64,000 bases of DNA, from positions 1-64,000 of the forward strand of contig JABJQG010000041.1 of NCBI GenBank assembly GCA_018663505.1, given 5' to 3'. Every line of letters begins with the position of its first letter. The first letter of the stretch is position 1. This document shows, in pieces, positions 5,949 through 16,304 of this stretch. The stretch comes from Pseudobdellovibrionaceae bacterium (GTDB taxonomy: Bacteria; Bdellovibrionota; Bdellovibrionia; Bdellovibrionales; UBA1609). The position numbers and the translations under genes are program-made. Under the pieces are notes generated by a model, which worked only from the letters and a program-made list of their open reading frames with translations, ran no database searches and had not been told where the DNA came from.

Positions 5949-6073
5949 AATCTACAAATTTACTTTCCAGAATTTACAAATCGGGGTATTGTTGGTATTC
6001 AAAATTTCACTGCAACTATATCTTGAAAACAAAGTAATTATAGTATGTTATGAGTTATTCACAAAGGATAAGT

Positions 6074-8764
6074 ATGAGCCAAGATTCTACATTTTCAGAC
6101 CGTTATGCCCCCCAGGACATTGAAACAAAGCATTATAAAAACTGGGAAGAAAGTGGCTACTTTAAGGCTGAAGATCAGTCTACAAAACCACCATACTGTA
6201 TTATTTTACCACCGCCAAATGTTACGGGTGTACTGCATTTGGGGCATGCACTTGATTTTACTTTGCAAGATGTACTTATTCGCTGGAAAAGAATGTCAGG
6301 CTTTAATGCTCTTTGGATGCCAGGGGCGGATCATGCTGGTATTGCCACACAAAGTGTTGTGGAGAAAGAGCTACGAAAGGAAGGCGTAACTCGTCATGAA
6401 CTTGGTCGGGAAAAATTTGTAGAAAAAATATGGGACTGGAAACACGCACATGGAGAAAGAATTTTAGAGCAGATGAAATGCATGGGATTCTCCTGCGATT
6501 GGGATAGACAAACCTTTACTTTGGATGAGGGTGTTTCTAAAGCTGTTCGAAAAGTGTTTACTTCACTGTACAAGAAGGGCGCAATTTATAGAGGGAACAG
6601 ATTGATTAACTGGAGCCCTAAATTAGAGTCAGCTCTTTCTGATCTTGAAGTTAATCATATTGAAACCAAGGGTAACCTTTGGCACATAAAATATCCATTA
6701 GCTGATGGTAGTGACTTCTTAATTGTGGCCACCACCAGACCAGAAACACTGCTAGGAGATACGGCTGTTTGTGTACATCCAAATGATGAAAGATATGAAT
6801 CCTATATTGGAAAAGAAGTTTCCTTACCATTAACTGATCGTAAAATTAAAATAATTGCAGATGAATATGTAGACAAAGATTTTGGATCCGGTGTGGTCAA
6901 AATTACGCCGGCTCATGACTTTAACGATTATGAAATTGGAAAGCGTCATGAGTTAGAGTTTATTAATTTACTAAATAAAAATGGTACATTGAATGAAAAC
7001 GCTGGAGAAAACTATAAAGATCTTTCGGCTATTGACGCGCGAAAAAAAGTTGTAGCTGATCTGGAAGAGCTTGGTCTTTTAGAAAAAGTAGAGCCTCATG
7101 CCCATTCTGTTGGGCATTGTGAGCGATCAGGCTGTGTTGTAGAACCATTATTGTCTGACCAGTGGTTTGTGGATGTATCTAATATTTCTGTGCCAGCAAA
7201 AAGAGTTGTGGAAAGTGGAACAATATCCTTTGAACCGGAGAGTTGGACCAAAACTTACTTACATTGGATGAATAACCTTCAAGATTGGTGCATATCTAGA
7301 CAACTGTGGTGGGGGCACAGGATCCCAGCATGGTATTGCAAGGACTGCTCCCACGTAACGGTGATAGAAGAGAGTCCATCTAAATGTGAGGGCTGTAAAA
7401 GCGAAAATATTTATCAAGAAGAAGATGTATTAGATACTTGGTTTAGTTCAGCCCTCTGGCCTTTTAGTACGTTGGGCTGGCCTGAAGAAACTGAAAGTTT
7501 AAAAACTTTTTATCCGACAAATGTGTTGATTACTGGTCATGATATAATATTTTTCTGGGTTGCTCGTATGATAATGATGGGCTTAGAGTTTCAAGAAGAT
7601 GTTCCATTTAGAAAAGTATACCTGCATGGCTTGCTGCGAGATGATCAAGGTAGAAAACTTTCTAAATCCCTAAAAAATGCTCCTGATCCACTAGAAATTG
7701 TAAAGGAGTATGGAGCAGATGCCTTGAGAGCGACTTTAATGTCGCAAGTTTCTTCTGGGAGAGATTTGAAATTCTCTATGCAGAAATTAGAGACAAATAG
7801 AAATTTTTTAAATAAAATTTGGAATGCCACTCGATTTGCATTAGGTGCACTTACTGACTTTGATGCTCCTGTTGAGGGTGATCAAGCACTACCTCAAAAA
7901 TCGGACTTATCCGATGCAGATCAATGGATAATTCATAAATTAAAGGTTTGCGAAAAACAGGTTGATGAAAACTTACGTAATTATAAATTTTCTGAGGCGT
8001 TTGGTGCCATTTATGCTTTCGTTTGGCACGAACTCTGTGATTGGTATTTAGAACTATCTAAACCTATTTTATACGGCGAGCCTTCATCCGAGCGAACAGC
8101 TACACAGCTGGTATTAACTCAAGTTCTTAATAGAGCTCTTCGCCTATTGCATCCATTTGCCCCTTTTATTACTGAGGAGCTTTATCAAAAGTTACCCATT
8201 AAAAATGAATCCATAGTTGTTGATTCGTATCCAAATATTAAATCTGATAAAGTATGGTTGGAAGTAGGGTCGGAAGAGATTGCTTTAGAAATGGATTTAG
8301 TTATTTCTGTGATTTCTGCCATAAGGAATATTCGTGGTGAAAACAGAATAAAGCCTTCTGAAAAAATTAAAGTGATGCTTTCTCCAGGTGACGACAAGGC
8401 ACAAAAAATATTAGGTGTTAACAAGGTTTCTATAATGACAATTGCTGGGCTTAGCGAATGTATTATTAGTGAAGTTGAAGATATGTCCAAGTGTGCTGTG
8501 ACTCCAGTGAGGTTTGAGTCTTTGGAAGTGGATGTGGTTATTCCCTTAGAGGGGCTTGTGGATTTTGAAATCGAAATTACCAGGATAAATAAAAATATCG
8601 AAAAATTAGAAAAAGAAGAACTCAGTTTAAGCAAAAGGATGAATAATGAAAATTTTCTGAAAAATGCCCCAGAAGAAGTGGTTGATGATGGAAAACTGCA
8701 GCTGGTAAAGTTTAAATCATTAATTGAAAGCTTAAGAGCTAGTTTAAAACGGCTTCAAAGCTAG
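6074..8764 (+). CDS. valS: Valine--tRNA ligase
   Basis: This class I aminoacyl-tRNA synthetase charges tRNA-Val. The HIGH motif appears as HLGH within PPNVTGVLHLGHAL and the KMSKS motif as KLSKS. The CP1 editing domain is present (TTRPETLLGDTAV), as is the Val-type anticodon-binding region and a C-terminal coiled coil rich in Glu and Lys. The full length of about 896 residues is normal. I chose ATG 6074 because AAGGA ends 5 nt before it. The upstream ATG at 6050 has no ribosome site and would add eight residues (MSYSQRIS). A weak promoter (TTGAAA 6023, TATGTT 6044) would start transcription after 6050, which also favours 6074. A two-hairpin repeat follows the stop. Confidence 0.96.
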   Translation: MSQDSTFSDRYAPQDIETKHYKNWEESGYFKAEDQSTKPPYCIILPPPNVTGVLHLGHALDFTLQDVLIRWKRMSGFNALWMPGADHAGIATQSVVEKELRKEGVTRHELGREKFVEKIWDWKHAHGERILEQMKCMGFSCDWDRQTFTLDEGVSKAVRKVFTSLYKKGAIYRGNRLINWSPKLESALSDLEVNHIETKGNLWHIKYPLADGSDFLIVATTRPETLLGDTAVCVHPNDERYESYIGKEVSLPLTDRKIKIIADEYVDKDFGSGVVKITPAHDFNDYEIGKRHELEFINLLNKNGTLNENAGENYKDLSAIDARKKVVADLEELGLLEKVEPHAHSVGHCERSGCVVEPLLSDQWFVDVSNISVPAKRVVESGTISFEPESWTKTYLHWMNNLQDWCISRQLWWGHRIPAWYCKDCSHVTVIEESPSKCEGCKSENIYQEEDVLDTWFSSALWPFSTLGWPEETESLKTFYPTNVLITGHDIIFFWVARMIMMGLEFQEDVPFRKVYLHGLLRDDQGRKLSKSLKNAPDPLEIVKEYGADALRATLMSQVSSGRDLKFSMQKLETNRNFLNKIWNATRFALGALTDFDAPVEGDQALPQKSDLSDADQWIIHKLKVCEKQVDENLRNYKFSEAFGAIYAFVWHELCDWYLELSKPILYGEPSSERTATQLVLTQVLNRALRLLHPFAPFITEELYQKLPIKNESIVVDSYPNIKSDKVWLEVGSEEIALEMDLVISVISAIRNIRGENRIKPSEKIKVMLSPGDDKAQKILGVNKVSIMTIAGLSECIISEVEDMSKCAVTPVRFESLEVDVVIPLEGLVDFEIEITRINKNIEKLEKEELSLSKRMNNENFLKNAPEEVVDDGKLQLVKFKSLIESLRASLKRLQS

Positions 8765-8818
8765 TAAAGGTTGTTGGTGGTTTTGACTCAGGGCATTGGT
8801 GCTCGATTGTAATTTGAG

Positions 8819-8885
8819 CATCCTGACAATCGAGGCTTGCCGCCTCGAGCTCCGCAATCTAATGGCATCGTGCCATTAGATCTAT
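8819..8885 (+). repeat. Two-hairpin repeat, copy 1 (3' of valS)
   Basis: The element runs from CATCC to ATCTAT. Hairpin A has stem CGAGGC/GCCTCG with loop TTGCC (8831-8847). A linker containing CCGCAA follows, then hairpin B, an 11-bp perfect stem ATCTAATGGCA/TGCCATTAGAT around TCG (8857-8881). It is nearly identical to the copy at 16125-16192 and structurally homologous to the inverted copy at 8928-8995. It lies 3' of valS in the sense orientation. Confidence 0.85.
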
Positions 8886-8927
8886 AAATAGACTGACATC
8901 CATGATGACTTGATTTCTTTTCTTTCA

Positions 8928-8995
8928 ATAGATTCCCCCACACGACGTGGGGGAATTGCGGGTTTCAGGGCGGCAGCCCTGATCTCCCATGGATG
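8928..8995 (-). repeat. Two-hairpin repeat, diverged copy 3 (3' of the GDPD gene)
   Basis: Read on the minus strand it starts CATCC and ends ATCTAT like the other copies and has the same length (68 bp). Hairpin A is CAGGGC/GCCCTG with loop TGCC, the linker again contains CCGCAA, and hairpin B is TTCCCCCAC/GTGGGGGAA around GTCGT. Stem sequences differ almost completely from copy 1, yet pairing is kept, while loops and linker are conserved. It follows the minus-strand GDPD gene in sense orientation. Confidence 0.8.
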
Positions 8996-9086
8996 GAAAG
9001 CTATCAACTTCGCACTAAAAGTTCCTACTCATAAACCCATAGAATTAAAATAGAGAGTTAGATTATTTTCCATAACTTGGTAGTTA

Positions 9087-9887
9087 TTAAAACTGATCTA
9101 TAATTTTTTTTAACCTTAGAGGGTGGTTGGTGAATACCCAGTCACAGCCCTCATTAATTTCTCTAATGAGGCTATTCTTAGATTTGATGAAGCCTACACC
9201 GACTTTTTTATTATTACTTTTTAACTTTGATCTCATATCTTTATTAATGAGTAAATAATGTCCTGTAAAACCACCAAGAGAGCTCTTAATAGTTTTTTGG
9301 AAAATCTCCTTTGCATTCAATAGAGAGATGGATAGGAACCCGCTAGAGTTTAAATTCTGAAAGTATTGAAATATATCCGAGTTTAAAGAAATAAGGTGGT
9401 AATCTTCTATGATTTCTAATCTAGACAAAGAGTGGCTAATGATTTTCGCTTTTTCTGTATTAGAGCGATTTGAACCAGGGTTTAAAAAATGTTCATCCTT
9501 CACCTCAATCATTAGGTGAATTTTTTTACCGTAAAGCTCTATGAGTTCATCGAGAGTTAATATTTCAGGAATTTCTTTTCGCAATTCATTAAAATTAAAT
9601 TGTGAAATGATAACCTCAGGTCGATTGAAGACTCTCCCGCAGTTTAGGTCGTGGTGAATCACCGGTACAAGGTTTTTTGTCCATTGAATATCTAGTTCGA
9701 TGCCCCAGATACCGTTTTTTAGGCAGATATCAAAAGCCTCTTTAGTATTTTCTTTAATATTGTTTTGATGATACCCTCGGTGGGCAACAAGTTGAATTAA
9801 TCTATTATTATCAAATTTTTTAGTTTGAGGTATTAGCGAAAAACTAAGGTCTATAATTGACTCTAAAGTATCTTGAATGATGGACAT
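9087..9887 (-). CDS. Glycerophosphodiester phosphodiesterase family protein
   Basis: The 266-residue protein has the GDPD TIM-barrel signatures in order: VAHRGYHQNNIKENT (catalytic His-Arg and Glu), GIELDIQWTKN (metal-binding Glu and Asp), VPVIHHDLN (second catalytic His), MIEVK, and the closing VFTNHPLRLKKII. Family members hydrolyse glycerophosphodiesters to glycerol-3-phosphate and an alcohol. There is no signal peptide, so it is probably cytoplasmic. The length is normal for the family. The gene appears monocistronic and is followed by a two-hairpin repeat in its own orientation. The exact substrate is uncertain. Confidence 0.88.
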   Translation of the reverse strand: MSIIQDTLESIIDLSFSLIPQTKKFDNNRLIQLVAHRGYHQNNIKENTKEAFDICLKNGIWGIELDIQWTKNLVPVIHHDLNCGRVFNRPEVIISQFNFNELRKEIPEILTLDELIELYGKKIHLMIEVKDEHFLNPGSNRSNTEKAKIISHSLSRLEIIEDYHLISLNSDIFQYFQNLNSSGFLSISLLNAKEIFQKTIKSSLGGFTGHYLLINKDMRSKLKSNNKKVGVGFIKSKNSLIREINEGCDWVFTNHPLRLKKIIDQF

Positions 9888-10070
9888 ATTACCTTACAAT
9901 GGTCTTGTTCTTGTTAAATATTCAGCACTATTAAGGACTGGTTTAATCATAATTATTGGCATTGTCTAGAGTATTTATTGTTTGTGAGGGAATTCTTAGT
10001 AAAAATATAGACATAGGAAATAATGATTTCTATATATGTTGAATATATGGAACTAAATTAGGAGAATAAT

Positions 10071-10784
10071 ATGATTGCCCGAACAAAGAGAATACTTGTC
10101 ATTAGCTTATTTTCGCTTTTCAGTGTAAGTGCACTGGCTGCAGGTGGTGGAGGTTCCTCAATAGGTTTCTTTATAGGTACAACAGGCTCTACTCAGACAG
10201 ATATGAATAGCTTGATAGATACACAGAATTCGGGAAGTGATGGTCCTATTTCTGCGGGCAAGTTAACTAGTGCTTATGAATTTTCTGGCCACTGGAGTTA
10301 TCGTTTTTCTAATATAATGGGCTTACATTTTCGTCCCTCATACTTTACGCAAACTACTGATGGAACAGGAACAGCAGGGTCTTATGATTATGGAATTACT
10401 GGTTTTACCCTTTTTCCCATGATGCGGTTATTTTTATTAGAAAATAATTATATTAAATTTTTTACTCAAGTAGGAATAGGTTGGGGATTTGCAAATGGTG
10501 TCATTCAAGAGCCGGGTTTAAAGGTTGAGTTTTCGGGAAATGCATCTGGTTTTATTGGGGGAATTGGGGCTGAGTTTTGTATAGCAACAGTTCACTGCAT
10601 AAATGTAGAAGGAAACTTTAGATACCTACCCATTGAGCGTATGACGGTGGATTCAGCCTCTGGATCTAATGCAGGATCGGGCCTGTCACAATACCTATCA
10701 GGTGAAATTGAGTTAGGCGATCATGATTTAGCGTCCAGTATGTCAGGTATTATGGGTGTTTTAGGTTATACTTATTATTTTTAA
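10071..10784 (+). CDS. Small outer-membrane beta-barrel protein
   Basis: The 237-residue protein has a signal peptide (MIARTKRILVISLFSLFSVSALAA) followed by a Gly/Ser-rich linker. About eight amphipathic strands with aromatic girdle residues follow, and it ends in GYTYYF, the terminal Phe signature recognised by the BAM assembly machinery. TAGGAG lies 7 nt before the ATG. Single Cys residues at the end of the sixth and start of the seventh strand (EFCIATVHCINVE) could form a disulfide. It resembles OmpX/OmpW-sized barrels; the function is unknown. The MBL-fold gene starts 17 bp downstream and may be cotranscribed. Confidence 0.78.
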   Translation: MIARTKRILVISLFSLFSVSALAAGGGGSSIGFFIGTTGSTQTDMNSLIDTQNSGSDGPISAGKLTSAYEFSGHWSYRFSNIMGLHFRPSYFTQTTDGTGTAGSYDYGITGFTLFPMMRLFLLENNYIKFFTQVGIGWGFANGVIQEPGLKVEFSGNASGFIGGIGAEFCIATVHCINVEGNFRYLPIERMTVDSASGSNAGSGLSQYLSGEIELGDHDLASSMSGIMGVLGYTYYF

Positions 10785-10801
10785 GATCAGGATATCGGCG
10801 T

Positions 10802-11779
10802 ATGAAAATTAAATTATGGGGTGTTCGTGGGTCTTTGCCTACACCAATTTTACCTGCAAAGAGTGAACAAAAAATAAAAAATTTGCTACACAAATTTGTA
10901 GGTTTTCAGAAAGAAAATTCATCCTCCGATGTTGATGAGTTTGTAAATTCTCTTCCTAAATACAAAGTATCTGGATTTGGGGGAAACACTGCATGTGTAC
11001 AGGTGAGTAGTGAAAAACAAAATCTAATAATTGATGGTGGGTCGGGGATTCGAAGACTTGGGGAAATATTGGCCTGTGGTCCATGCGGGGCAGGGCAGGG
11101 TGAAGTCCATATATTAATGACTCATTTTCATTGGGATCATTTAATTGGACTTCCTTTTTTTATACCTATTTTTATCCCGGGAAATAAGATCCATATTTAT
11201 AGTGTGCAAGATGACGCTGAAGAGTCTTTTAAAACTTTATTTAAAAAACCTAACTTCCCGGTGCCTTATGAGTATTTAGGAGCTGATATTATTTATCATC
11301 AACTTGAACCTAGAAAGATGGTTGAATTTGAAGATTTAAAAGTGACCCCTTACGAGCTAGACCATCCAGATCCTTGTTGGGGATATAAAATTGAACATAA
11401 TGGCAAGACGTTTTCATATTGTGTTGACTCGGAGGGGACACGAGTAAGTCGTCAAGATTTAGGCTTGGACCTTCCACTCTATCAGAATGTGGACCTTATG
11501 GTTTTTGACGCCCAATACTCTTTTTTAGAAGCTGCAGAACGTGTTGACTGGGGGCATTCTTCGGCTCCCATTGGTTTGGATATTGCTATGCGTGAAGGCG
11601 TCAAAGAGACTCTATTCGTTCACCACGACCCGGCTGCTTCTGATGAGCATATAGCAGAGGTAGAAGAGCAGACTAGAAGCTACTATGAGGCTCAGTTAAA
11701 ATCTGCTGCCAAACAAAATAAAGAAGTGTTTGAGGTGGATTGGCATTTTGCTCAAGAAGGAGAGGAATACGACCTTTGA
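10802..11779 (+). CDS. MBL-fold metallo-hydrolase (cyclic-phosphodiesterase-like)
   Basis: The 325-residue protein opens with MKIKLWGVRGSLPTP and FGGNTACVQV, both typical of the PhnP/RNase Z-like branch of the metallo-beta-lactamase fold. The metal-binding motif reads THFHWDHLIGLPFF, with further ligands in ELDHPDPCWGYKI, the CVDSEG strand and LFVHHDP near the C-terminus. Such enzymes bind two metal ions and usually cleave phosphodiesters, often cyclic ones. No signal peptide is visible, so it is cytoplasmic. A roughly 45-residue insertion (SEQKIKNLLHKFV to NSLPKYKVSG) lies between the first two conserved strands. The substrate is unknown. Confidence 0.85.
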   Translation: MKIKLWGVRGSLPTPILPAKSEQKIKNLLHKFVGFQKENSSSDVDEFVNSLPKYKVSGFGGNTACVQVSSEKQNLIIDGGSGIRRLGEILACGPCGAGQGEVHILMTHFHWDHLIGLPFFIPIFIPGNKIHIYSVQDDAEESFKTLFKKPNFPVPYEYLGADIIYHQLEPRKMVEFEDLKVTPYELDHPDPCWGYKIEHNGKTFSYCVDSEGTRVSRQDLGLDLPLYQNVDLMVFDAQYSFLEAAERVDWGHSSAPIGLDIAMREGVKETLFVHHDPAASDEHIAEVEEQTRSYYEAQLKSAAKQNKEVFEVDWHFAQEGEEYDL

Positions 11780-11923
11780 GGGACGTATTGGTTATTGAAT
11801 TGTTTGGAACACATCAATTGTTTAAAAGTCGAAGGCCGGTCTCTATGGGCTTGTTATTTAACGCATATTGTCCCGCAAATTGGTTAGGTTTATGTTCAGT
11901 GCAATTGAGAGTAGAATGAAATC

Positions 11924-12406
11924 ATGAATATGAGTGTGGAAAAAATTGATGATAAGCTAGAAATATCCTTTTTTGGAGAAATTAGTGAGGACGTGGCTCT
12001 GGAGCCACTAAGTTTTACCGGAATTAATACTGTAGTTTTTGATTTAGAAGGAATTTCTTTGTTAAACTCATGTGGTTTAAGAACTTGGATACTATGGATC
12101 CGAGAGATACCCAGTGAAACGGTTAAGAAATTTAAAAACTGTCCTAGAATTGTTGTAGAACAAATGAATATATTAGAGGGCTTTCTTCCTAAAAACTCTG
12201 TAATAGAATCCTTTTATATTCCCTATTACTGTGATGACTGTGATAAGGAATATAATAAATTAGCCCTAGAAGGGGAAGACTTTGTAGCAGGCTCCATGGA
12301 CTCAAATATGGGAGTTGCTTTAAGTGAAATTCCTGTATGTAAAGAGTGCGGAGAAGAAATGGAATTAGATGTAGTTCCGTTAAGTTACTTTAAGTTTCTA
12401 AAATAA
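11924..12406 (+). CDS. STAS-like domain protein with C-terminal zinc ribbon
   Basis: The first roughly 95 of 160 residues read like a STAS/anti-anti-sigma fold: a predicted strand ending VVFDLEGISLLNSCGLRTW, with the Asn-Ser pair where anti-anti-sigma factors carry the regulatory Ser, followed by a helix. The C-terminal part carries two Cys pairs, CDDC (about residue 105) and CKEC (about 140), which could form a zinc ribbon. STAS proteins bind kinases or transporters in signalling; phosphorylation control is inference. It lies 10 bp upstream of rnr and probably shares its transcript. An alternative start is the ATG two codons later (MSVEKID). Confidence 0.6.
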   Translation: MNMSVEKIDDKLEISFFGEISEDVALEPLSFTGINTVVFDLEGISLLNSCGLRTWILWIREIPSETVKKFKNCPRIVVEQMNILEGFLPKNSVIESFYIPYYCDDCDKEYNKLALEGEDFVAGSMDSNMGVALSEIPVCKECGEEMELDVVPLSYFKFLK

Positions 12407-12416
12407 AGATGTTAAT

Positions 12417-14540
12417 ATGAAAAAAAAAAAAGTAGATGGAAGACAGAAGCGATCTGGTAGAAGGTCTTCTGAGCGAGCCAATGTACAAGCCGGAATAATT
12501 AAAAGACACCCCGATGGGTTTGGATTTTTTATTCCTGACGATTCATCACAAGTAGACGCCTATGTACCTAGAGAATCTATGGCGGGAGTAATGACTGGTG
12601 ACAGAGTTGACGTGGAAATTAAAAAAGAACGTGGTGGAAGCCGGTTTAGAGGTTTTGTAAAAAAAATCACAGCTAGAAAGTTTAAATCAGTTACGGGAAA
12701 AGTGCATTTTATTAACCCAGATACTGTTGCACTTAAAGATGAGAGCTTTACCTGGGGTGAAGATCTTTTTTTAGATAATTTTTCTGAATACCCTGAAATT
12801 CATGAAGACGATTATTTAATCGCAGAAATCACGTCTTACCCGGATTCTAAACCTGGCTTCCGAGGAAATATTACTCAAATCTTAGGAGATATGAACAAGG
12901 CCGACATGGATAATATTCGAGTGCTAAACATGCACCAGATACCCCATGAGTTTTCTAAGCAGTGTATTCAGGAATCTAAAAAATTTCCTAGTGTGGTGGA
13001 TCCAAAAGATTTTAAAGATAGAAAAGATCTGAGGGAGTATAGCTTTATTACCATTGATGGTCCTACAGCTAAAGATTTTGATGATGCCATTTTTGTTGAA
13101 AAACAAAATAATGGTTACAAGCTGTTTGTGGCCATTGCAGATGTAAGTCATTATGTGAAACCTCAAACAGAGCTTGATAATGAAGCTTTACTTAGAGGAA
13201 ACTCTACATACTTTCCCAATTTTGTAGCTCCAATGTTACCAGAAAATATATCAAATGAACTGTGTTCTTTAAAGCCAAATGTAGATCGATTAGCATTTGT
13301 TGCTGAATTATTTTTAGGTTTAGATGGTGAGATTCAACAATCGCAATTTTATGAGGCTGTGATTAAATCTCATGCCAGAGTGACTTATGGTGAAGCTCAG
13401 GAAATATTTGATGGTGGTAAATTAAAACAATTAAAATTTATTGAACCCATGTTATTTCAGGCAAAGGAATTAGCTGAAAAGTTAATGCAAAATAGGTTTG
13501 AAAATGGCTCATTAGATATGGATGTCCCAGAAGTTGTTATTTCTGTGGACCCTCAGGGTGAACCATTAGAGATTCAAAACTCTATTAGGATTTTTGCTCA
13601 TCGGCTTATTGAAGAGTTTATGTTGTTAGCTAATGTAGCTGTGGCTCGTTTTTTCACAAAAAGAGAAATCAATGCCATTTTTAGGGTGCATGATAATCCA
13701 AGAACAGAAGCACTGGATTTATTGAAGGGTTATTTGCATCAGTTTGGCGAGTCATTAAATAATGGAGATGAACCACTACAGAAAACATTAACCAAAGTAT
13801 TACACAAATATAAAGGCGAGGCTCAGTCCTCAATTTTAAGTATTTTAACATTAAGATCAATGAGCCAAGCAGAGTACAGCTCCAATAATATTGGGCATTT
13901 TGGTTTAGCATTTAAAGACTACACACATTTTACCTCACCTATTCGCCGTTATGCTGATCTTGTTGTACACCGATTATTAAAGTCAGCATTAATGCCACAT
14001 AAAGGCTATATGGGTGTACCTAATGATAAGTTACAACATTATGGTACCTTGCTAAGTGCCAATGAACAGCGATCTGTTAAATCTGAGCGACAGATTAATT
14101 CCATAAAAAAAGCTCGTTTTATGAAGCAGTTTGTGGGGCAAGAATTTTCAGGTATGATTAGCTCAGTAACAAAGTTTGGAGTATTTGTTTTATTAAGAAA
14201 GTACGCTGTGGATGGTTTAGTTAAAATTGAATTTTTGGGAAATGACCTTTTTGAGTTTGATTCAGAAAATTTAATTTTAAGAGGGCAAAAGACTGGAAAA
14301 ACATTTGCTATAGGTGATGAACTGAATATAGTTATAGGGGCTGTGGATAGAGAACAAGGCCAAATAGACTTTGTTTTGGATGAGGAAAGCTTAAACAAAT
14401 CCCCAGGGGGTCGAAACAGTGAAACATCAAAGCGGAAGAGTGCTGCCACTGGGGGGGACCCTAAAAAACGCAAGTCGAATAAAAAAGATAGTGGGAGTGT
14501 TCGCAAAAAACGGGTTCGAAAATCTCGCGGAAAGGGCTAA
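12417..14540 (+). CDS. rnr: Ribonuclease R
   Basis: This 707-residue 3'-5' exoribonuclease degrades structured RNA processively. Cold-shock/OB domains come first (KRHPDGFGFFIPDD, about residues 20-150). The RNB catalytic domain follows, with the Asp cluster in DGPTAKDFDDAIFV and conserved HFTSPIRRYADLVVHR. An S1 domain (FSGMISSVTKFGVFV) and a strongly basic tail (KKRKSNKKDSGSVRKKR) complete it; S1 plus basic tail distinguishes RNase R from RNase II. The start codon is followed directly by twelve A residues (12420-12431) encoding four Lys, a slippage-prone tract. The 3' end overlaps ubiB by 122 nt in another frame. Confidence 0.93.
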   Translation: MKKKKVDGRQKRSGRRSSERANVQAGIIKRHPDGFGFFIPDDSSQVDAYVPRESMAGVMTGDRVDVEIKKERGGSRFRGFVKKITARKFKSVTGKVHFINPDTVALKDESFTWGEDLFLDNFSEYPEIHEDDYLIAEITSYPDSKPGFRGNITQILGDMNKADMDNIRVLNMHQIPHEFSKQCIQESKKFPSVVDPKDFKDRKDLREYSFITIDGPTAKDFDDAIFVEKQNNGYKLFVAIADVSHYVKPQTELDNEALLRGNSTYFPNFVAPMLPENISNELCSLKPNVDRLAFVAELFLGLDGEIQQSQFYEAVIKSHARVTYGEAQEIFDGGKLKQLKFIEPMLFQAKELAEKLMQNRFENGSLDMDVPEVVISVDPQGEPLEIQNSIRIFAHRLIEEFMLLANVAVARFFTKREINAIFRVHDNPRTEALDLLKGYLHQFGESLNNGDEPLQKTLTKVLHKYKGEAQSSILSILTLRSMSQAEYSSNNIGHFGLAFKDYTHFTSPIRRYADLVVHRLLKSALMPHKGYMGVPNDKLQHYGTLLSANEQRSVKSERQINSIKKARFMKQFVGQEFSGMISSVTKFGVFVLLRKYAVDGLVKIEFLGNDLFEFDSENLILRGQKTGKTFAIGDELNIVIGAVDREQGQIDFVLDEESLNKSPGGRNSETSKRKSAATGGDPKKRKSNKKDSGSVRKKRVRKSRGKG

Positions 14541-16095
14541 GCTCGGTCGTTATGTTCTAGATAAGTTTACAAGCTCCGGAGTTCAAGACCTTTCAGTTGG
14601 AGAGCGTTTAAGAATTAGCTTTGAAGAGCTTGGTCCCACATTTATTAAATTAGGACAACTGTTAGCAACAAGACCGGATCTGGTTCCACTGAGTGTGGCC
14701 AAAGAATTTCAAAAACTTCATGATCAAGTAAAATCAGTGGATTTTGATAAAGTGGCTCCAGTGATTGAAGCTCATTTTGGATCCAGTTTTGATCAAATTT
14801 TTTTAGATTTTAATAAAGAACCTATTGGGGCAGCAAGTATAGCTCAAGTATATCAAGCTAAGCTGCATACTGGTGAGGACGTTGTAGTTAAGGTTTTACG
14901 TCCGGGAATCGTTGATATTATTTATGATGACTTAAATGTGTTATATGCCCTGGCCGAGCTTATTGAGAAATATATTCCAGAAGCTAGAGTTTTTAACCCA
15001 AGTGGAATTGTTGATGAGTTTTTTAAAACACTAGAACTTGAAACTAACTTTATTGTGGAAGCCAACAACATAAGGCGATTTGAAAAAAACTTTGCAGATA
15101 GAGACAATATTGCCATTCCCAAAGTATATACACAATTTTCAGGCAAAAAAGTTTTAGTCATGGAGAAGCTCAATGGTATTTTAATGAGTCAAGAGAATGC
15201 CTTAGATCAAGAAAACATTGATCCTTCAAAGCTCATTCGCGCAGGTATTGATTGTTACTTTCAAATGGTTTTTAAAGATGGTTTTTTTCATGGAGACATG
15301 CACCCAGGAAATATGTTTGTGCTCCCAGATAACAAACTAGGCTTAATTGATTTTGGTGTTGTTGGCAGATTAAATTCTAAAACTCAATCAGCAATTGCAA
15401 ATATGTTTATGGCACTAGCAACTGAAGACTATGATCGTTTTGCCTACGAGTATGTAGATCTAGCCCCTTATTCAGATAAGGTGGATGTGGATCGACTTTC
15501 CAGGCAAATTAGAGATACTCTGTCGCCCTACCATGGATTGACCCTAGAAAATGTAAATAGCGGAAAGCTATTACTGAACACAACTAATTTAGCAGCACAA
15601 AATGGTCTAAAATTGCCATCAGAGCTTATACTATTTTTTAAGTCCATCATTACGATTGAGGGGATGGGCAGAAGAGTAAAAAAAGACTTTGATGTTTTAG
15701 AGTATGCTATGGAATTCTCCCTTGAGCTTGTACAAAATAAATATGATGGGAAAAAAGTTTTAAAAGATCTTACCATGGTAACAAGAGACGTGCATGGGCT
15801 TGTGTCCGCCGTACCAAGACACTTAAAGCATCTTCTAAGACGATGGAGCTCCCCCAACTATATTGCAAAAATTAAAATTGATGAGCTTTCTGAATTTAAA
15901 AGAGTATTATCAAAATCTGCCAACCTCATTTTTTTAGGAATGATCATTAGTATTATGATTCTCAGTTCCACTATCATCTTCACTTTTACTGAACACACAG
16001 GTTTTGATTTCACAGTTCCAGTAATGGCAGCTTTTGGTTACGGAGCAGCCTTTGTATTAGGAATAGTAGCCTTTATTAACTATATACGTAGATAA
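14419..16095 (+). CDS. ubiB: UbiB/ABC1-family atypical kinase
   Basis: The protein has the ABC1/ADCK signature motifs: FIKLGQLLATRPDLVP (the KxGQ motif), PIGAASIAQVYQAKL (the Ala-rich nucleotide loop), VVVKVLRPG (Lys for ATP), then HGDMHPGNMFV and LIDFGVVG for catalysis and metal binding. Two C-terminal membrane helices anchor it. Family members support ubiquinone or other isoprenoid-lipid pathways as ATPases. The earliest start is GTG 14419; other GTG codons (such as the one encoding V within KKIVGVFAK) lack a ribosome site. The conserved VFAKNGFENLAERAKLGRY stretch already lies inside the end of rnr, so the overlap is a true dual-coding segment unless there is a sequencing error. Confidence 0.87.
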   Translation: MKHQSGRVLPLGGTLKNASRIKKIVGVFAKNGFENLAERAKLGRYVLDKFTSSGVQDLSVGERLRISFEELGPTFIKLGQLLATRPDLVPLSVAKEFQKLHDQVKSVDFDKVAPVIEAHFGSSFDQIFLDFNKEPIGAASIAQVYQAKLHTGEDVVVKVLRPGIVDIIYDDLNVLYALAELIEKYIPEARVFNPSGIVDEFFKTLELETNFIVEANNIRRFEKNFADRDNIAIPKVYTQFSGKKVLVMEKLNGILMSQENALDQENIDPSKLIRAGIDCYFQMVFKDGFFHGDMHPGNMFVLPDNKLGLIDFGVVGRLNSKTQSAIANMFMALATEDYDRFAYEYVDLAPYSDKVDVDRLSRQIRDTLSPYHGLTLENVNSGKLLLNTTNLAAQNGLKLPSELILFFKSIITIEGMGRRVKKDFDVLEYAMEFSLELVQNKYDGKKVLKDLTMVTRDVHGLVSAVPRHLKHLLRRWSSPNYIAKIKIDELSEFKRVLSKSANLIFLGMIISIMILSSTIIFTFTEHTGFDFTVPVMAAFGYGAAFVLGIVAFINYIRR

Positions 16096-16124
16096 AAGGG
16101 GCGGCTTTTCAATTGAAGCGTTTC

Positions 16125-16192
16125 CATCCTGAGAGATCGAGGCTTGCAGCCTCGAGCACCGCAATCTAATGGCATCGTGCCATTAGATCTAT
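16125..16192 (+). repeat. Two-hairpin repeat, copy 2 (3' of ubiB)
   Basis: This copy starts CATCC and ends ATCTAT, with hairpin A CGAGGC/GCCTCG around TTGCA, linker CACCGCAA and hairpin B identical to that of copy 1 (ATCTAATGGCA/TGCCATTAGAT). It lies about 30 bp after ubiB in sense orientation. It differs from copy 1 only at a few loop and linker positions and one indel before hairpin A. Confidence 0.85.
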
Positions 16193-16304
16193 AAAAACTA
16201 AGTGTTATTGTGGGATTGAATTTGATTTTTTCTTTAAATTATTTTGCTACTGCACTAGCAAATATGAAGTCTGTTTGTCAAAACTCAAATTCAAAAGAGA
16301 AAGG

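Follow-up and report, generated by a model that had tools for sequence, protein, structure and literature searches.

A probable REPIN-like mobile element with two-hairpin arms at gene ends of a Bdellovibrio-like bacterium

A repeat that keeps its hairpins while the letters of the stems change may be maintained as RNA, or it may spread as folded DNA. Three copies of such a repeat raise this question in a 64,000-nt stretch of DNA from a Pseudobdellovibrionaceae bacterium (contig JABJQG010000041.1), here called the window. The motif CCGCAA-N15..30-ATCTAT has three matches in the window, where chance would give 0.10, and the copies found by an earlier sequence-only reading all lie where it placed them (Table 1). 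Among the roles considered there, a REP/REPIN-like mobile sequence is now well supported. The copies probably belong to a REPIN-like, non-autonomous mobile DNA element that is mobilised by a Y1 transposase.

Table 1. Coordinates of the element and its neighbours in the window
Feature	Position	Strand	Description	Basis
valS	6050-8764	+	convergent with GDPD gene	
valS–GDPD convergent gap	8765-9086	.	almost entirely filled by one element	ORFs, GDPD Pfam, ValS relatives, sequence
Left outer arm, window dyad	8775-8818	+	weakly complementary to right outer arm; decayed	
Type A arm unit	8819-8885	+	CATCC, hairpin A, linker, hairpin B, ATCTAT	R1 match; R2 match at E 1.2e-12
Hairpin A of 8819 arm	8830-8848	+	stem TCGAGGC, loop TTGCC	
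Linker of 8819 arm	between hairpins A and B	+	CTCCGCAA	
Hairpin B of 8819 arm	8858-8880	+	stem TCTAATGGCA, loop TCG	
Inter-arm spacer, window dyad	8886-8927	.	42 bp	
Inverted partner arm, other stems	8928-8995	-	hairpin A CAGGGC, hairpin B TTCCCCCAC	R1 match
Right outer arm, window dyad	8996-9044	-	reverse complement TATGGGTTTATGAGT..GAAGTTGATAGCTTTC equals family consensus	
GDPD gene	9087-9887	-		Pfam GDPD
ABC1/UbiB-like gene	14419-16095	+		Pfam
Solo type A arm unit	16125-16192	+	3' of ABC1/UbiB-like gene	R1 match
Spacer-like stretch after 16125 arm	16193-16236	.	second arm absent	by-eye comparison with family spacers

Anatomy and copy number of the element

The first two copies, earlier read as separate repeats, are inverted halves of one dyad. 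Their stems had been called alike and those of the third copy divergent, which has to be swapped: the arms at 8819 (+) and 16125 (+) share TCGAGGC and TCTAATGGCA, and the arm at 8928 (-) differs. A total length of 67-68 bp also proved too short, as in many copies about 50 nt on each side beyond the arms are mutually paired. In the window dyad these outer arms match in 26 of 44 columns, the left one having decayed, and the dyad folded as RNA has a z of -5.4. The adjoining ValS is 59-64% identical to its counterparts in two Bdellovibrionota/Bdellovibrionales metagenome-assembled genomes, which puts the host in this lineage. For the 16125 arm no inverted partner was found; the stretch 16125-16236 is probably, judging from its letters, the remnant of a dyad whose second arm is missing.

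Intrinsic terminators combine a G+C-rich hairpin with a U tract. In the window copies and their relatives, ATCTATAAA or a similar sequence without a U tract comes after hairpin B, so the repeat was rejected as a plain terminator, in agreement with the earlier reading. No Rfam family matched the window at gathering score.

A strict pattern search finds 24 copies in the 3.78 Mb genome to which the window belongs (G000, 72 contigs), and none in the reversed control. R1, a covariance model built from 27 distinct arms, gives 117 arm matches in the same genome, made up of 54 inverted pairs and nine solo arms. The arms stand in the order (+,-) in all 54 dyads, with hairpins B facing inwards and spacers of mostly 40-47 bp. 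Many arms that lie at unrelated sites do not differ at all over 70 nt.

Within each of the 54 dyads the two arms differ in type. Identical hairpin-B stem pairs occur in none of the 53 resolved dyads, against 13.1 expected under random arm pairing; the formal p of 3e-7 overstates the case, because copies inherit their dyad.

The outer arms agree within an element and differ between elements. Pairing with the own partner has a mean of 13.3, compared with 7.6 for arms of other elements (0 of 10000 permutations). As single-stranded DNA, the best-preserved copy is predicted to fold into a stem of about 65 bp bearing four hairpins (-111.6 kcal/mol, z -21). Quite likely, the copies at more than 50 gene ends of this Bdellovibrio-like host result from the spread of a mobile, hairpin-rich, two-arm element of about 285 bases.

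The elements can themselves be insertion targets. In at least nine arms, hairpin A is interrupted by an IS481-family insertion sequence with a 384-aa DDE transposase, which in most cases occupies the loop region of the B arm. Insertions are found on contigs C3, C26, C34, C38, C56, C64 (both ends), C6 and C31 of G000, and a whole copy is present at L117:1-1270. The contigs often break at the elements, and many contig ends are due to IS481-family copies sitting in arms. Other insertion sequences also target REPs (PMC1525189).

Stem changes and placement at gene ends

The stem changes on both sides of the two hairpins, first seen in three copies, are real over the 27 distinct arms. The covariation score is 0.578 against 0.217 after shuffling; pairing holds in 98.9% of cells, 11 of 17 pairs are double-changed, and slid controls are far lower. 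Almost every departure is a paired double change, and one-sided intermediates are nearly absent. The arms of G072, a genome from another family of the order, show the same on a smaller scale. That a folded nucleic acid has been selected or maintained, as the earlier reading proposed, is well supported.

Whether the fold is kept as RNA or as DNA can be approached through G.U wobble pairs and A.C mismatches. In the outer stem these number 53 and 65 overall, and 32 and 28 on the transcribed strand. In the hairpins the counts are 5 and 12 overall, and 0 and 1 on the transcribed strand. Because G.U is not favoured over A.C despite abundant compensatory changes, palindromy appears to be kept at the DNA level, and the balance argues for a DNA-level cause of the stem changes.

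An example of double changes at a single site can be found upstream of fusA. An orthologous arm is present there in G081 (L255) and G090 (L257), with flanks that are 86-88% identical, and both hairpins are kept in both genomes. Hairpin A reads GAGAGC/GCTCTC in G081 and GAGGAC/GTCCTC in G090, and hairpin B reads CCGCCC/GGGCGG and CCGGCC/GGCCGG, respectively. The full dyad is present in G090; the second arm has been lost in G081.

Double changes may also arise by mutation. Template switching is reported to create and maintain hairpins in this way (PMC8794818), and the mechanism is also documented in PMC7202029. Covariation alone is therefore no proof of selection on the fold. Template switching at replication (quasipalindrome correction), with no such selection, is a serious if less favoured explanation of the stem changes: it would give the near absence of one-sided departures, the symmetry of G.U and A.C, and outer arms that match within elements and differ between them. 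It leaves unexplained the conserved loops, the CATCC tag, the linker, the dyad order, the heterodimer rule and the spread to 54 sites. The process is compatible with a mobile element, and both can act together. Covarying stems may thus stem from DNA-level processes, with no functional RNA needed, which calls for caution in covariation-based RNA discovery.

Forty-four dyads have both neighbouring genes, called by a simple ORF procedure. They lie in 22 convergent, 18 codirectional and four divergent gaps. Among background gaps from the same genome stretches, 23 of 184 are convergent (p 3e-7). In all 18 codirectional gaps the copy lies closer to the stop codon on its upstream side than to the start of the next gene. 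The earlier reading had every copy 3' of a gene in sense orientation. This holds for each arm because the dyad is symmetric, and it was rejected as a bias, since the A-to-B polarity relative to transcription is nine sense and nine antisense. Searching the genome and its relatives with a covariance model, as had been suggested, brought further copies that covary, in whole elements of random orientation.

The same positions might suit a regulatory or protective RNA at mRNA 3' ends, transcribed in both directions in convergent gaps, that stabilises or ends transcripts and for which mobility is secondary. The elements lie within about 60 bp of stop codons, half of them in convergent gaps, but REPs too are usually placed 3' of genes (PMC3733652). 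Very strong folding and the fusA-site arm, with both hairpins kept through double changes in two species, would fit such an RNA; the transcribed strand without a G.U preference over A.C, the even polarity, the hairpins without a 3' U tract and the patchy distribution among genomes do not. This explanation is improbable, and the roles of mRNA 3'-end structure and small RNA proposed earlier have gained no support (no Rfam match, G.U not favoured, no orientation bias).

Relatives and their Y1 transposase genes

R1 also matches the family in G072, and the R1 load of G000 has no near equal elsewhere in the class. R2, a model built from the G072 arms and one arm of G030, finds 32 copies in G000, 36 scored copies in G072 and eight in G030, and it retrieves the window copies at E about 1e-12. 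Of 143 genomes in the class, 15 contain R2 matches, among them several single ones near E 1e-4 that chance may explain. The phylum search gives matches in eight of 368 genomes at E 1e-4. Dyads in G072 have the same order as those in G000, and their arms are likewise unlike each other.

Some candidates were set aside. A match in G023 is a short hairpin-B-like site and was not taken as a member. The exact pattern had no match in named genomes or viral contigs, a set from which the own genome is possibly excluded. At the one site compared (G090 C60) no clean empty site or excision was seen: the additional DNA includes an ORF as well, and a simple insertion does not account for the gap. The literature searched on Bdellovibrio with REP or RAYT yielded no report of the element.

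A RayT-type Y1 transposase gene, which the sequence-only reading suggested looking for, does not stand beside the repeat in G000 and does so in G072. There, small Y1 genes (IS200-like, RAYT-type) of one subfamily have an arm within about 500 bp at 12 of 16 inspected loci, two of the four armless loci being near contig ends. At L288 and L289 the gene has a full arm on its left and an inverted arm on its right, and at L290-L294, L326, L327, L329 and L330 an arm lies beside it. At several loci hairpin A is missing from the transposase-adjacent arm, whose score is only 14-17 bits. The non-autonomous dyads L223 and L224 have the same right arm as is found beside Y1 genes. Two inspected Y1 genes of another type (L297, L298) had no arm. 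In G030, one of two inspected subfamily genes has an arm about 130 bp upstream.

The Y1 proteins match PF01797 at E 2e-5, just over the cut-off. Profile comparison with the IS608 and ISDra2 TnpA structures is weak (E 0.003-0.011). Against the curated RAYT model NF047646, whose threshold is 80 bits, the 191-aa protein scores 20.8 bits and the 177-aa protein 33.0 bits; the 171-aa protein has no match.

The 191-aa gene (L290-L294) is present in at least six near-identical copies. Their downstream sequences part immediately behind the stop codon, which suggests that the gene moves together with its upstream arm.

None of the nine Y1 loci of G000 has an arm nearby. They are of another type, or in one case an IS200 fragment (L128, C25:53514-53869, a broken transposase gene with an in-frame stop). 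No homologue of the G072 subfamily was found in G000, where the only cross-match is a weak one to an unrelated Y1 gene. The cognate gene has either been lost or is missing from the 97%-complete assembly. Y1 genes of 199-223 aa (L130, L133, L134 and L135 in G000; L297 and L298 in G072) each have private inverted repeats, for example AAAAGGTACG...CGTACCTTTT, which differ from gene to gene yet pair and are TIRYT-like.

The element may instead be moved by another enzyme, such as a different Y1 lineage of this genome, or by none any longer, with the arms in G072 co-opted by a local transposon. No Y1 gene of G000 carries an arm, and several of the nine loci have inverted repeats of their own, one locus being a fragment. 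This alternative is rather unlikely given the genes between full left and inverted right arms at L288 and L289, the right arm that L223 and L224 share with Y1-gene neighbourhoods, and G030, which independently shows the same arm–Y1 neighbourhood.

A Y1-mobilised element could work as follows. Inverted two-hairpin arms, a spacer of 40-47 bp and, in well-preserved copies, outer arms of about 50 nt that pair to give a basal stem of about 65 bp would form a multi-branched fold when the DNA is single-stranded, for instance on the lagging-strand template. This fold would be recognised by a RAYT-type Y1 (HUH) transposase acting in trans, which would cut the element and move it. The autonomous relatives would be those of G072, in which the same arms enclose or adjoin the transposase gene. 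Copies would build up just 3' of stop codons, above all in convergent gaps, probably because insertions elsewhere are counter-selected. Compensatory changes would follow because spreading is limited to copies that can fold, because the two strands of a stem are repaired at once by template switching within the palindrome, or for both reasons.

A bolder version is more speculative. The element may represent a distinct Y1-driven lineage in which each end is a two-hairpin unit, the left arm differs from the right, and the multi-branched strand of about 285 nt, not a simple pair of REP hairpins, is the transposition substrate. If so, the heterodimer rule would reflect end identity or the avoidance of one long palindrome.

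Comparison with known systems

REPINs and RAYT REPtrons are known from Pseudomonas, Stenotrophomonas and E. coli. Their features include doublets, extragenic placement, remnant singlets and a flanking Y1 gene (PMC3116915, PMC2817692). The element is alike in its inverted palindrome doublets with a short spacer (54 of 54 dyads, plus nine solos), in its extragenic position, in its dozens of copies and in singlets that look like decayed doublets. A Y1 gene flanked by units in the same genome was not found in G000; homologous units flank one in G072 and at one G030 locus.

Several traits differ from those of REPINs. Each arm has two hairpins and measures 67-71 nt, the arms of a dyad always differ in their stems, and there is an extra outer stem. 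The transposase subfamily is multicopy in G072 and falls below the curated NCBIfam RAYT cut-off. The conserved arm columns contain CATCC/CGTCC and no GTAG, the tag that the TnpAREP proteins under study require or favour (PMC8266576). Because GTAG is absent and the transposases are below the RAYT cut-off, the element was not classed as a plain GTAG-type REPIN.

CGTC-tagged REPs share head-to-head dimers, often heterodimers and sometimes within longer palindromes, and an outer CATCC/CGTCC; they are reported without a transposase (PMC3733652). They are defined by an unpaired CGTC directly before a stem of 8-9 bp starting with AT, a loop of 4-5 nt and a CCA tail (PMC3733652). In the element, about 6-10 nt separate CATCC/CGTCC from the hairpin A that follows, hairpin B stands between CCGCAA/CCACCAA on its 5' side and CTAT on its 3' side, no CCA tail is in place, and each unit has two hairpins. 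Membership of this superfamily was rejected on tag position, tail and hairpin number. The heterodimer rule has "no obvious explanation" in other REPs (PMC3733652), and the absence of identical hairpin-B pairs in this family is a clear case for asking why REP dimers are heterodimers. TIRYT/TIRtron Y1 genes (PMC3733652) have counterparts with private inverted repeats in G000, and those repeats are unrelated to the element.

Long imperfect palindromes near gene ends that can fold as a whole are also known as ERIC and YPAL-type elements, and the element is similar by description. We know of no four-hairpin dyad with a transposase-bearing relative among them.

The best reading is that the element works like a REPIN without being a plain member of that group: its two-hairpin arm is unusual, its heterodimers are obligate, and it has no GTAG. 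REPIN-like elements with a recognisable transposase would thereby extend to the Bdellovibrionota, with another arm architecture and another tag.
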